Shown: positions 2,755 through 38,300 of the stretch, piece after piece
Layout of the letters: each line of letters starts with the position of its first letter
Numbering within the stretch: the stretch's first letter is position 1
IMG/VR virus record: IMGVR_UViG_3300042922_000281
Location: 1-39,433 of that record
DNA: 39,433 nt
Source: a virus
Direction: 5' to 3' (one strand)
Translations under genes and position numbers: made by a program
The notes under the pieces: generated by a model
The model's database searches: none
What the model was told of the DNA's origin: nothing
What the model saw: the letters and a program-made list of their open reading frames with translations, nothing else

Positions 2755-2760
2755 TATAAT
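2755..2760 (+). promoter_or_regulatory. Perfect -10 box (TATAAT) of the solitary-repeat transcript
   Basis: TATAAT lies on the plus strand, with six bases between its end and the first G of the CRISPR-like repeat at 2767. That places the expected transcription start at or next to the first repeat base. The -35 region is weak (TTTCAT at 2733-2738, spacing 16). Plus-strand transcription here would be antisense to the late operon. Confidence 0.6.
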
Positions 2761-2766
2761 AGCTAT

Positions 2767-2795
2767 GTCGTCCTGCGAAGGACGTGGATTGAAAC
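2767..2795 (+). repeat. Solitary type I-C-like CRISPR repeat unit
   Basis: The 29-base element starts GTCG and ends CGTGGATTGAAAC, the conserved ends of type I-C repeats as I know them. Between them is a perfect 6-bp stem, 2769-2774 with 2779-2784, closed by a GCGA tetraloop. Eleven bases (2785-2795) follow the stem, matching the 11-base handle that Cas5 leaves in type I-C crRNAs. It is about three bases shorter than the usual 32-base repeat, all in the stem. No second copy is found nearby and there are no cas genes. Confidence 0.75.
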
Positions 2796-2827
2796 GGTCA
2801 GCTTCCTTGCGTTCGGATAACCGCACA

Positions 2828-2856
2828 GTGGTGGCATCTGTGATGGATGCCACCAC
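2828..2856. terminator. Strong hairpin after the tail nozzle gene and the solitary-repeat transcript
   Basis: An 11-bp perfect inverted repeat (2828-2838 with 2846-2856, 7-base loop) lies three bases past the nozzle stop on the minus strand. It could end or protect transcripts from either side. Neither strand has a good T-run, so factor-independent termination is uncertain. Confidence 0.5.
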
Positions 2857-2859
2857 CTC

Positions 2860-4419
2860 TTAGAAAAACCCGCCCGGTTCCGTCAGAACGTCAATCGAGT
2901 TGAGAACGAAGGTCTGGGAGAGCGAGCCCGCAATGGCGACCGAGCCAACCTGCCCCATACCCTGAATGGACTGCCACACAGCGGCAGGGGTGCTTTCCGC
3001 CTGCCAGGAGGCCACATCCCATTCCGCCACGTCCCAGATCGCGCCCGCATCGGTAATCATCGGCGCACCCGAGATGATGGGCGGTGTCGTGTCGTAGTCT
3101 ACCTTGAGGTCAATGCTGACCGTGTAGCCTTCCGGCGCCCGCACAAGAGGCCGCGCTGCGATAAACCGCTTGGTCTGCGGGGTTTTCAGGTCGGTGAATG
3201 CCGTCTGCATGGTGAACGAGATCGAGGCCCCGTTGTCCAGATACTCACCGCCGAACCTGTAGACCGTGCCGCTGTGAGACCCGAAGTAGAGCCCGGAGCC
3301 GAGAAGCGACCAGCAGCCGGCGTCCATGCCCTTGAAGCGGCACCAGCCGCCCGTATCCAGGTCCATGACGTATTGGTGAGCGGTGCCCCGCTCGGCCACC
3401 GGCACATTGACAATGAGCAGCTTGCCGGCCGGATAATCCAGCACCTGCCAGCCGAAGTAAGTCCCGCTCGCGGCGTAAGCCTGGGCAAAGGCACCTGAGA
3501 TAGCATCGGTGATCGCCACCTTGCTTTGACCCGAGACGTTCAGATCGAGCAGCGTGGAGAGCAGAGCCACGCCCTGAGAGGTGATGATGCCGAGATCCCC
3601 GCCGACCTTGATGAGACAGCGCTTGCCGATGGGCTCGCCAATGCGGAAGGTGCCAACCTTGCTCCAGGTCGAAGCGTCTGCCGGGTCTGTGCCCTGATAG
3701 ACAACCACCTGCCCCTTGGAGGTGATGAACGCGGCGTAATCGTCCATGCCGTCGCCACCGTCATGGGTCCATGTGCCAATGGCAACCAACTCGCCCCCGA
3801 GATTGCACAGGGGGCCGAGGGGAAACTTGGTGGCTGCGCCCTGAACGGCAGCAACGTCGAGATACCACGCATCCAGCGTCCCGCTCTGTGTGAACCACAA
3901 CCGGGAGGCATGAACAGCGATGTTGGAGAAGGTGGAGGCGGTTGCTCCCGTGACATCCGGGGAGCGATCAACCCAGGTCGTGCCGTCATAGGTGCGAAGG
4001 CCGTTCGCTCCGTTCACCGCGCAGAGGAAGTTACCGCCCGTGGCGCCGAAGTTGACATGCTGCCAGCGGCCATTGGTGAGGGAGGAGACCGCAACCGCCC
4101 CGACTGCGCCGGGATTGGTTACGTTGTAGATAGCGGTTGGCGTTGCGGCAAAGAGCCGGTTGCTGCCAGATGGCGGCGCATACTCCATCAGGCTTTCGAT
4201 GTAGGTGCCCAGACCCGTCACATGGGAGGCGCAGCCCTCCCGAAGAACCACCCCGCCCGTGGTCGGGATCATGTTGTCGAGGGTGATGGCATATTCCGGC
4301 TTCATGGCCGGAAGGGGGTCTCGGGCATTCCAGCCCTTAGAGGGTGCCGGGATGGTTTTCAGTTGCGCATTCTGTGCGAGGGAGGCGCGGCCCTTCCGTT
4401 TAGCCGGGGGTCGTGCCAT
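2860..4419 (-). CDS. Tail nozzle / tail tubular protein B-like
   Basis: The 519-residue protein has a basic N-terminus and then a long succession of short beta strands with aromatic and glycine turns, as expected for a beta-propeller-like tail tube tip. NARDPLPAMKPEYAI and DNMIPTTGGVVLREG near the start are typical of the P22 gp10/T7 gp12-like family in alphaproteobacterial podoviruses. The start ATG overlaps the last base of the adaptor stop (TAATG). Pairing with a gp4/gp11-like adaptor directly upstream supports the call. A solitary CRISPR-like repeat and hairpin follow its stop. I infer the role from family resemblance and order, not from a catalytic motif. Confidence 0.65.
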   Translation of the reverse strand: MARPPAKRKGRASLAQNAQLKTIPAPSKGWNARDPLPAMKPEYAITLDNMIPTTGGVVLREGCASHVTGLGTYIESLMEYAPPSGSNRLFAATPTAIYNVTNPGAVGAVAVSSLTNGRWQHVNFGATGGNFLCAVNGANGLRTYDGTTWVDRSPDVTGATASTFSNIAVHASRLWFTQSGTLDAWYLDVAAVQGAATKFPLGPLCNLGGELVAIGTWTHDGGDGMDDYAAFITSKGQVVVYQGTDPADASTWSKVGTFRIGEPIGKRCLIKVGGDLGIITSQGVALLSTLLDLNVSGQSKVAITDAISGAFAQAYAASGTYFGWQVLDYPAGKLLIVNVPVAERGTAHQYVMDLDTGGWCRFKGMDAGCWSLLGSGLYFGSHSGTVYRFGGEYLDNGASISFTMQTAFTDLKTPQTKRFIAARPLVRAPEGYTVSIDLKVDYDTTPPIISGAPMITDAGAIWDVAEWDVASWQAESTPAAVWQSIQGMGQVGSVAIAGSLSQTFVLNSIDVLTEPGGFF

Positions 4420-29744: not shown

Positions 29745-30410
29745 TCACCGTGCCATCACGCCAGCCAGCATACCTGCAGGCATGTTGACCTGCTGACACG
29801 CCCACGTAAAAAGGGATCGCAATTCCCTTGCCGCCTTGCCCTTCGGCTCCAACTCCAGCGCTGTGCGCCCGTCATTAACCGCATGAGTGAATGCGGCCCG
29901 CTGCTCAACCACTTGGGGCGCGATAGCTGCAGACTGTTCGCCAAGCCAACGGATCGCGTCATTGACGGCCGGATCGGGGAGCCCGTTTCTGCCATGCGGC
30001 GCCGAGTTGATAACAACTGCAGCGGGCTTCTTAGCGATTGCCGCCACGTCTAAAGTCGCCTGGATGGCCTCTAGGTCGAATTGCGCCGGCCTGCAGGGGA
30101 TCAGGATGAAGTCTGCAGCCTTCGCGGCCAGGAGTGAAGTTCTGTCGGCATATGGCGGGGTGTCGATAATCAGCAGCTCGCAACCGTTGGCCTCTGCAGC
30201 ATCCTTCAGCCGGGACAGTTGCTCCGCATGGTCGCCCACTACTTCAGGATCAGCGCCGCGCCTCTCGCCCCATTTGCGGGCGTTCCCTTGCGGGTCAAGA
30301 TCAATGATGGCTGTACGGATGCCTGCCAGAACGGCTGCAGCCCCAAGGTGAACGGTTAGCGTCGTCTTCCCGCTCCCGCCCTTTTGTGATGCGACGGTGA
30401 TTGTCCGCAT
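29745..30410 (-). CDS. parA: ParA-type partition ATPase
   Basis: From the ATG at 30410 (GGGAG seven bases upstream) the protein has 221 residues. It has the deviant Walker A KGGSGKTT (10-17), motif A' DLDPQGNA (37-44), Walker B IIDTPPYAD (81-89) and LIPCRPAQFDLEA. It lacks an N-terminal HTH, so it is a small ParA of type Ib that depends on a partner for DNA binding and operon control. It would move genome copies over the nucleoid before division. The in-frame ATG at 30458 has no good site. Confidence 0.92.
   Translation of the reverse strand: MRTITVASQKGGSGKTTLTVHLGAAAVLAGIRTAIIDLDPQGNARKWGERRGADPEVVGDHAEQLSRLKDAAEANGCELLIIDTPPYADRTSLLAAKAADFILIPCRPAQFDLEAIQATLDVAAIAKKPAAVVINSAPHGRNGLPDPAVNDAIRWLGEQSAAIAPQVVEQRAAFTHAVNDGRTALELEPKGKAARELRSLFTWACQQVNMPAGMLAGVMAR
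29780..29800 (+). repeat. Par-region direct repeat, copy 1
   Basis: The 21 bases from GCATGTTG to CTGACACG, inside the 3' part of parA, match 30431-30451 at 19 of 21 positions. Confidence 0.45.
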
Positions 30411-30430
30411 GATGGCACTCCCACGTGGTG

Positions 30431-30457
30431 GCCTGTTGGCCTGCTGACACGTAGTCA
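30431..30457. promoter_or_regulatory. Par-flanking site 2 and direct repeat copy 2
   Basis: The region upstream of parA combines the direct repeat (30431-30451) and TGACACGTAGTCA (30445-30457). The latter matches site 1 at 12 of 13 positions. A CCACGTGG palindrome lies close by at 30421-30428. This is a good place for par operon control or the centromere. Confidence 0.5.
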
Positions 30458-30500
30458 TGCCTGCGACTGGTTAAGGCATGGTTAACCTCAAATATACCCG

Positions 30501-34412: not shown

Positions 34413-34532
34413 ATGATTGCAAAGGTTCTGGCATATACGGCTCTAGCCGTTGGCGGTCTTGTGGCCCTTGGCCTGATTGGCGCCGCCCTGACGATGATGG
34501 GCGGCGCCACAGGAACAGCGCTCGGCATTTAG
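34413..34532 (+). CDS. 39-residue membrane micropeptide encoded against the late operon
   Basis: AGGAGAGG lies five bases before the ATG. The product, MIAKVLAYTALAVGGLVALG and 19 more residues with LIGAALTMMGG, is a single membrane span rich in Gly and Ala. It fits the gap between tail-fibre and lysis genes and ends three bases before the convergent gene. Such opposite-strand genes in late operons are typical morons expressed from the prophage. Its role could be superinfection exclusion or lysis control. No family is recognised. Confidence 0.55.
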   Translation: MIAKVLAYTALAVGGLVALGLIGAALTMMGGATGTALGI

Positions 34533-35871: not shown

Positions 35872-36165
35872 ATGGAATCACATTGGCCCCGATGGGGAAA
35901 AACCCTGTATGTTGTCGCCACTCTTGCGCTGTTCGGCGCAATGATGGTGGCCGCTTGGGTATGGTTTGCTCGTCCGCTGGGGGAGGGGTTCGGCCACTGG
36001 TATGCCGAAGCAACCGCAGGGTGGCCCTATCCAGCGCAGATAGGTGTATTAGCGATGATCCCTATCGCGCTTTATGGTCTCGCCTATCTTGCTTACAGGC
36101 GAGACCATCGCAGTGGCTTAATCCACTCTCCGACATTCTGGCGCTACGTCAGAACGGGCCGTTAG
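35872..36165 (+). CDS. 97-residue two-span membrane protein encoded against the late operon
   Basis: The frame starts MESHWPRWGKTLYVVATLAL and has spans at about 11-32 and 57-76. Between them is a Trp-, Gly- and aromatic-rich loop. The ATG at 35872 follows GAGGGG without a gap; TTG at 35830 is an alternative start. It fills the only large gap between fibre and ejection genes and overlaps the end of the ejection gene by four bases. As a lone plus-strand gene among late genes it is a moron candidate. Confidence 0.55.
   Translation: MESHWPRWGKTLYVVATLALFGAMMVAAWVWFARPLGEGFGHWYAEATAGWPYPAQIGVLAMIPIALYGLAYLAYRRDHRSGLIHSPTFWRYVRTGR
36074..36108. repeat. 12-bp perfect inverted repeat inside the plus-strand membrane gene
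   Basis: 36074-36085 pairs with 36097-36108 around an 11-base loop. The stem is long and GC-rich, but no T-run follows on either strand. It may be a transcript end or protection structure for the late mRNA after the ejection gene. Confidence 0.5.
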
Positions 36166-38300
36166 TAACCGAAGAGGCGCGGGGTCTCCTGTGCCACGCG
36201 ACCGCTTTGAGACTGAAGCAGGGCGTTCACAAGCCGATCCGTAACCTGCCCCGCTCTTTCGCCAGATCCCGCCAATGAGGCACGGCGGCCAAGCGCGTTT
36301 AGTACGACATCAAGATCAGGGCCGCTCTGAAGAATGAGGGCTCTTGCAAGTTGCTGATTGCGGGAGATGTCGTCAGCCGCACCGATCAGGTTTGCAGCCT
36401 TCGAGATACCCGCCGCGCCGACCTTGGCACCTGTCGCCAGAGCGGCACCAGGAACACCGCCGACCGCACCAGCAAGCGGGATCATGCCCGCATTGGCAGC
36501 GGCGGGAGATGGCCCTTCGCCCCGTACAGCAAAGCGATCAGCCGAGGTGCTTCGCATGGCGGTCTGAGAGTTTTCGACCACCTTGTTGTAGGCATCTCGG
36601 AAGGCAATCTCACGGTCAACCGACCGCATGATATTGGCGGCCTCGTCTTCCCCGAAGAGTTGAGCGAGCTTCTGCGGGTTCCAATCTCCGTCAGTCATAA
36701 CCTGCTGTCGAACAGCCAGAAGGTCATTGGCTTTCGTGCCAATCACCCGGTCAAGTTCAGCCCTTGCCCCCTGACGGATGCGAAGCGGGGTTGCCGATGG
36801 GCCGACAAGCGTTCCTTGCGGCTGTGCGGCCTCTGTCAGTTCTTGAGCGAACTCCTGCGGGCGGGTTGCCGTCCTTCCTGTATCGAGCACATGAGCCCCA
36901 CGTTCTAGGCCGCCCGACTGACGGGCCAGCTCTTGGAACTGGGCGTCTACGTCCTTGATGCCCGGAACAGCGGTTGCCAATTCAGCATCCACGGCCCGCC
37001 TTGCGTCTCCCAAGATGCGGAGGGCGTTCGTGTCCGCCTCTGTTCCCATTATCCCGTCAATCGCTTCACGGATATTGAGCAGGGTCGCCGGGTTGTTGTC
37101 GAGTGCGCTCGGATCATCAACGCTGTTGAGCATTTGACGAACCTGCATGGCCGCTCTTTGAGCGGGGCCACGTTCCACCGCTGCCGTCTGCTCCAGCGCT
37201 GCCGCCAGAGAGGCAGGATTGACAGGAGCAGCACCGGCAAGCACCCTTCTATATTCAGGGTGTAGCGCGTCTCGCGAGGCCCGCAGCCCCGCCTCTACTT
37301 GAGACGGGATGGGAGCCGGTCCAAGGTTCGCATCAAGGTCCGTCCGAATACGGGCGTTCGTGGTATCATTCCTTGCACGTAGCGGGTTGGTGATGATCTC
37401 CCGCGTTTCCGGCCTGACGCCCAAGCCCTGCGCGCTGCCGAGGTGCGACGGCGAGGCGTCCAGAAGCATGGCCTCCGGGCCAAGTTCACGCATTCGGGCG
37501 TCAATGGCTGATCGCCCGCCCGCATTGCTGAAGTCATCGACCGCCATGTTAGCGGCTGCGTTGCTCATGCCGGGGACAGGGGCGCGGCGGTTAGCGAGTC
37601 CTTGCGCCACTATGTTGATGGCGCGTCCGCCAAGTTGCCCCAGCCCAGGCCCGAGAGCGCCGAAAGTGCCGCCCCCGACAATACCGAGCCCGACCGAAGC
37701 AGGATCTCCTTCGCTGCGGACGACGGCATCAGCGCCACCCATCGCGGCGCCCGTTGCCCCCGACATAAGGGAGCGAGCCAGAAGGCTTCCATTGCCCATG
37801 CCAAAAGCTGCCGGAGCCGCAGCCATCAACGGGAGAGTGCCCACAACCCCGCCGACAGCCTGACCACCCATATCAAGATAAGGGTGATCCGCCTTGGCCT
37901 GTGCGGTGATCTGATTGACGCTTTCCAACGCAGCATCATACGACGGCGCCTTGCCGGCAACGGTTGAGATGCCCGCCGTGACCCGGTTAACCCCACCCCG
38001 AAGGGCAGGACCAACAACGGGGAGACCTTCCATCATGCCGCCTGCGGTCGCAAGGATGCCACCCAGGGCTCCCGAGGTGTCGGCCTTGGCGGGAGTTAGT
38101 ATGGCACTGTTCTGGGCTTCAACCGCCGCCTTGTCGGCAGCACTCAAGTTGAGGTCGAAGGAGTGCCCTGCTGGCGCTTGAGTCTCCGGGGGGCTTTTCT
38201 GCCCCCCGGAGAACCCTTGGAAACCGCTCAATGCGGCGTTAATATCGGGAGCCTCAACCTCGTAGGTCTTGCCGCCATGCTCGATTTCAAAAACGGGCAT
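36162..38300 (-). CDS. Large internal virion / DNA-ejection protein
   Basis: The 712-residue protein starts MPVFEIEHGGKTYEVEAPDI, a common N-terminal tag of such proteins. Gly/Ala-rich hydrophobic stretches follow (GALGGILATAGGMMEG, GVVGTLPLMAAAPAAFGMGN, GLGIVGGGTFGALGPGLG) that could insert in a membrane. Long helical parts with AAMQVRQMLNSVDDPSALDN follow, then another Gly-rich segment near 600. It pairs with the lysozyme/ejection gene, whose stop overlaps its start. Together they probably form the channel through which DNA enters the cell. Confidence 0.75.
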   Translation of the reverse strand: MPVFEIEHGGKTYEVEAPDINAALSGFQGFSGGQKSPPETQAPAGHSFDLNLSAADKAAVEAQNSAILTPAKADTSGALGGILATAGGMMEGLPVVGPALRGGVNRVTAGISTVAGKAPSYDAALESVNQITAQAKADHPYLDMGGQAVGGVVGTLPLMAAAPAAFGMGNGSLLARSLMSGATGAAMGGADAVVRSEGDPASVGLGIVGGGTFGALGPGLGQLGGRAINIVAQGLANRRAPVPGMSNAAANMAVDDFSNAGGRSAIDARMRELGPEAMLLDASPSHLGSAQGLGVRPETREIITNPLRARNDTTNARIRTDLDANLGPAPIPSQVEAGLRASRDALHPEYRRVLAGAAPVNPASLAAALEQTAAVERGPAQRAAMQVRQMLNSVDDPSALDNNPATLLNIREAIDGIMGTEADTNALRILGDARRAVDAELATAVPGIKDVDAQFQELARQSGGLERGAHVLDTGRTATRPQEFAQELTEAAQPQGTLVGPSATPLRIRQGARAELDRVIGTKANDLLAVRQQVMTDGDWNPQKLAQLFGEDEAANIMRSVDREIAFRDAYNKVVENSQTAMRSTSADRFAVRGEGPSPAAANAGMIPLAGAVGGVPGAALATGAKVGAAGISKAANLIGAADDISRNQQLARALILQSGPDLDVVLNALGRRASLAGSGERAGQVTDRLVNALLQSQSGRVAQETPRLFGY

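Follow-up and report, generated by a model that had tools for sequence, protein, structure and literature searches.

RNA anti-CRISPRs (Racrs) came to light recently, and tests cover only a few of them. Racrs have been proven for type I-C systems (RacrIC1), and in type I-F a non-targeting crRNA also inhibits (PMC10651486). Type I-C systems are without Cas6, and the hairpin and the 3′ single strand of the repeat are read by Cas5d/c, which cuts at the base; in the processed RNA, a spacer of ∼33 nt lies between a 5′ handle of 11 nt and a 3′ handle that is a 21-nt hairpin (PMC5965380, PMC3890593). Here we describe a phage element that is probably a stand-alone small RNA gene carrying one mimic of an I-C repeat, and thereby a candidate Racr.

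The window analysed is a whole record, of 39,433 bp, from an uncultivated virus, which is probably a complete genome because it bears a 127-bp direct terminal repeat. The phage genome is podovirus-like, with virion genes similar to ones found in podoviruses of Sulfitobacter, Rhizobium, Stenotrophomonas and Myxococcus. The element is antisense in the late operon, as the earlier note had placed it, and intergenic, in a gap of 121 bp (2739-2859) between two minus-strand virion genes, one encoding a GNAT-like/head-assembly protein (phrog_4470, 2301-2738) and the other a tail tubular B/stabilisation-like protein (phrog_5107, 2860-4419). Genes like these two are also adjacent in related phages, but there they abut or overlap, with 4-bp overlaps in BUCT555 and phiGT1 and no more than a few tens of bp in other relatives, and the 121-bp gap had no counterpart in the relatives in which the same gene pair was compared. 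Hence the element was probably inserted between two virion genes. The G+C content of the gap is 51% (versus 59%). The same element was found in none of the close relatives, use of the neighbouring 145-aa protein as a query for relatives found none, 7 kb of DNA showed no similarity to known phages, and no acr gene was recognised among the annotated neighbours of the element. Elsewhere in the window, a ParA-like partition protein (29745-30458, minus strand) hints at a plasmid-like lysogenic state.

On the plus strand, the element opens with a TATAAT −10 box (2755-2760), the last base of which is 7 nt before the first base of a solitary type I-C-like CRISPR repeat of 29 nt, GTCGTCCTGCGAAGGACGTGGATTGAAAC (2767-2795). 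Within the repeat, a 6-bp stem (2769-2774/2779-2784) encloses a GCGA tetraloop (2775-2778) and is followed by the 11-nt UGGAUUGAAAC (2785-2795), before which a Cas5c cut is predicted. When the sequence is set against the published handle length (PMC5965380), UGGAUUGAAAC equals the 5′ handle of I-C crRNAs in length and position; the handle sequence of the element was noted as TGGATTGAAAC. Thereafter come a spacer-length tail of 32 nt (2796-2827), for which no target was found, and a perfect 11-bp hairpin with a 7-nt loop and no T-run (2828-2838/2846-2856, spanning 2828-2856). The sequence hallmarks of I-C repeats are present, namely 5′ GTCG, a palindromic stem and 3′ GTGGATTGAAAC/T. The earlier description of these parts, from the −10 box and the start of the repeat through its I-C ends, stem, loop and 11 trailing bases to the 32 bases and the hairpin, was correct in letters and coordinates. 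As CGTGGATTGAAAC occurs only once in the whole record, the repeat is solitary and no second repeat exists in the 39,433 bp. In isolation it folds with an energy of −9.0 kcal/mol. Its sole match in Rfam was weak, to the CRISPR direct-repeat family CRISPR-DR9 (17.4 bits versus a gathering score of 45), and for the whole window neither Rfam at the gathering score nor a tRNA scan gave a match.

A scan of IMG/VR in which only the ends were fixed (GTCG-N12-CGTGGATTGAAAC) returned 22 stretches, while the exact repeat of the window was absent elsewhere in that collection. Of 21 distinct 29-mers, one of them from the window, 11 have pairs at each of the four further stem positions, an outcome with a chance expectation of 2% for each 29-mer. 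When 20 of the 29-mers were aligned, 91.7% of the cells paired and covariation was 0.467 compared with 0.141 in shuffles (0/500), and UA, AU, GC and CG pairs all occur at single stem positions; the stem of the window, UCCU/AGGA, is one covariant among these viral sequences. Because the repeat recurs among viral 29-mers with stem pairing and covariation, we conclude from these alignments that its resemblance to I-C repeats is not due to chance and that the stem is under selection as a stem. The similarity beyond chance to which the earlier note appealed is thus found. Among viruses, the repeat is kept and the tails are unrelated, the pattern for which the note had suggested looking in related phages.

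A promoter of its own had also been attributed to the element. The −10 box matches the consensus at 6/6 positions and lies at the right distance from the repeat, but the −35 sequence GTTTCA (2732-2737, 17-nt spacer) matches at only 3/6, so that the promoter is weaker than implied, and a simple sigma-70 consensus scan reported no promoter at the element. Across viruses, an exact TATAAT at most 26 nt upstream was found for 5 of 67 solitary hairpin repeats, compared with 0.3 expected. By scanning for TATAAT near the repeat, we found three sister units, L138, L145 and L146, all of them between ORFs and in unrelated viruses, in which the layout of the window (TATAAT, repeat, tail, hairpin) recurs. 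In L146 (2540-2640), TTGACA-17-TATAAT is followed after 5 nt by a 28-nt repeat (CGCUU/AAGCG stem), 31 nt and a strong hairpin; in L145 (2660-2810), TTGACA-17-TATAAT is followed after 9 nt by a 35-nt repeat, which 44 nt separate from a terminator that runs into TTTT; and in L138 (1880-2000), TATAAT stands 6 nt before a 27-nt repeat with the stem CGUAA/UUACG, and 26 nt further on comes an A/T-rich terminator. The tails of the window and the sister units range from 26 to 44 nt and have no sequence relation. The promoters or terminators of the three sister units are stronger, which makes them better first candidates for the bench than the window.

A hairpin of at least 11 bp within 95 nt follows 4 of the 7 TATAAT-linked repeats (window included; 0.1 expected) and 6 of the 67 others, a difference with a one-sided hypergeometric p of ∼0.005 that is descriptive only, since the subset was chosen after viewing. 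Enrichment of the downstream hairpin is confined to this TATAAT-linked subset; as a general trait of solitary repeats it was rejected, the mean downstream folding being equal to background. Direct repeats of 9-21 bp flank 6 of 75 solitary viral repeats (L017:7018, L044:2651, L094, L015, L061 and L021), mostly with one copy at or a few bases from the 3′ end of the repeat, and may be footprints of acquisition; none was seen around the copy in the window. Cas5c is encoded in 2 of 5 MAGs with a solitary GTCGTCC..GGAC repeat, which are too few to weigh.

The length of the repeat was compared in a second scan that used the stem pattern with length left free and yielded 72 viral stretches, most with a single repeat. 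After merging of duplicates, repeats of 27-30 nt made up 19 of 59 solitary viral repeats and 0 of 22 array repeats (Fisher p = 0.001), a limited comparison because the array sample, which includes 274 genomes searched by pattern, comes mostly from one bacterial class and viral contigs. The 22 distinct array repeats are 31-35 nt long, bar one register artefact of 36 nt, and at 29 nt the repeat of the window falls outside this range. Two-repeat I-C mini-arrays in the viral contigs L036, L048, L050 and L071 have normal 32-nt repeats, unlike the short solitary units. To be called by the published SRUFinder, a repeat must match a known one with identity and coverage of 90% or more and a score of 41.1 bits or higher (PMC10651486); these cut-offs govern detection and do not define function. 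Against 20 array repeats (the SRUFinder database holds 17,823), the best score of the repeat in the window was 32.2 bits over 16 nt, and the short units that were tested against the same 20 likewise stayed below 41.1 bits. Thus, as far as 20 repeats can represent that database, short-stem units would probably escape the SRUFinder thresholds.

Perfect 11-bp hairpins occur at three sites in 39 kb, among them that of the element and one at 34478; a very strong, perfect GC-rich hairpin is also located at 38183-38212, near the start of a 712-aa gene (36162-38300, minus strand). The hairpin of the element possibly forms the 3′ end of the RNA or, alternatively, the 3′ structure of a minus-strand mRNA, to which it may belong because there is no T-run on the plus strand and the stop codon of the minus-strand gene is 3 nt away. 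In a 100-nt RNA, the minimum-energy fold disrupts the repeat stem (stem probability ∼0.06), which is recovered to ∼0.46 with a longer 3′ end; disruption was also seen with 16% of shuffled tails. During transcription the repeat stem is predicted to form first, with a probability of 0.99 at 29-40 nt. A tail designed to mask the repeat was considered and rejected, as the energy of the repeat-tail duplex is ordinary and equalled in 21% of shuffles.

Given the published work on Racrs (PMC10651486), an RNA anti-CRISPR is the best reading of this solitary I-C-type mimic, and the unit is a good Racr candidate, although variant in anatomy. To this extent the proposal of a candidate RNA anti-CRISPR against type I-C is partly supported. 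The further suggestion that the short stem allows binding but not normal processing has no support, since the features that Cas5d reportedly recognises, the hairpin and the 3′ single-stranded end, are intact (PMC3890593) and processing also takes place in the known RacrIF1. Judging from the −10 box, host RNA polymerase would start at or beside the repeat, and the RNA, antisense to the late operon, would end near the hairpin. Based on I-C biochemistry, Cas5c would bind the repeat hairpin and the 11-nt 3′ strand and cut at the base of the stem. The upstream product would be a mere 18-nt hairpin if transcription starts at the repeat, and the RNA downstream of the cut, which comprises the 11-nt handle, the 32 nt and the hairpin, would be like a mature I-C crRNA in shape and size and would have no known target. 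Cas5c, Cas7 and Cas8c would be taken up by this product into complexes that stay idle, and the real guides of the host would be diluted, so that Cascade is filled by a decoy crRNA whose guide matches nothing. This mode is predicted because, of the two products, the downstream one with the handle alone would offer enough length for Cas proteins to assemble on. Later silencing by antisense late transcription might also be imagined.

A rival reading of the same parts is that the unit is an orphan crRNA, in which the 32-nt tail is a genuine spacer used with the host I-C machinery against a rival phage or a host gene and the hairpin replaces the second repeat. The tail is close to spacer length (I-C spacers are 33-36 nt, PMC3890593), the unit has a handle and a 3′ hairpin, and viral mini-arrays exist (PMC11656645), yet the record lacks a second repeat, the tail has neither an exact 20-mer match in IMG/VR nor a good match in 50,697 phages, and the tails of the sister units vary in length (26-44 nt) and are unrelated in sequence; we regard this reading as unlikely. 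With a 15-mer of the tail, 3-mismatch matches within the window showed a weak excess (5 versus 1.4 expected). A crRNA-like regulator, whose handle and short seed would guide host Cascade by partial complementarity to repress a promoter such as that of the cas operon, would elude database searches, as a short seed match suffices, and repeat-like RNAs are known to repress in a Cas-dependent way (noted in PMC10651486); since no seed is shared among the sister-unit tails, however, we hold this to be highly improbable.

Two other rivals were weighed. In one, the element is a non-functional relic, captured as a repeat or left as a by-product of spacer integration or recombination and free of selection, which would agree with the alternative fold that hides the repeat stem and with the flanking 9-21-bp direct repeats that may mark some solitary repeats as recent insertions. 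The covariation of the stem and its association with TATAAT and a hairpin argue for selection, the copy in the window is not flanked in this way, and its stem is unlike that of every array repeat compared, which leaves a relic quite improbable. In the other, the region has its role on the minus strand, where the late operon would use it as a 3′ end or as an RNA structure between genes, and its likeness to a repeat is incidental. The hairpin starts 3 nt past the stop codon of the late gene and minus-strand folding is strong (z = −5.1), but GTCG plus CGTGGATTGAAAC and the matching units elsewhere would be unexplained and relatives have no such gap, so this role has very little chance of being the correct one.

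Returning to the Racr reading, there is a tentative possibility, which we put somewhat below even, that stand-alone short-stem (27-30 nt) I-C Racrs form a distinct class across unrelated viruses, transcribed from the repeat, ended by an unrelated hairpin and acting, opposite to RacrIF1, by a handle-bearing dummy crRNA. Most of such a class would have escaped the published census, since its units lie below the repeat-match thresholds. Should the class exist, solitary type I-C repeats have been undercounted in the literature; its leaderless layout would also allow a direct test of whether a Racr can act via a Cascade that is complete yet idle and built on a decoy with a handle, and, if true, it would offer a very small natural design of inhibitor for type I-C systems.

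Among described systems, viral CRISPR mini-arrays also place a repeat and a spacer-length segment in a virus, whereas the unit in the window has one repeat and no protospacer match. RacrIC1 (Camara-Wilpert et al. 2023, PMC10651486) is likewise a solitary I-C-like repeat in a mobile element that is predicted to engage the Cas5-dependent I-C machinery, but it is co-transcribed with acrIC5, while the present unit has its own −10 box at the repeat, lies between virion genes and differs in its repeat, which is 29 nt long with a shortened stem. The type I-F RacrIF1 resembles it as an intergenic repeat mimic, with a promoter that is its own and strong. RacrIF1 inhibits via RNA upstream of the cleavage site, through Cas6f and Cas7f with no 5′ handle, and a handle-less Cas6-Cas7 filament has been described; in our unit almost nothing lies upstream, and the handle-bearing downstream product would have to act instead. 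With mature type I-C crRNA this product would share the 11-nt handle, a middle of ∼32 nt and a 3′ hairpin, but here the hairpin is not derived from a repeat and the unit would be transcribed singly.
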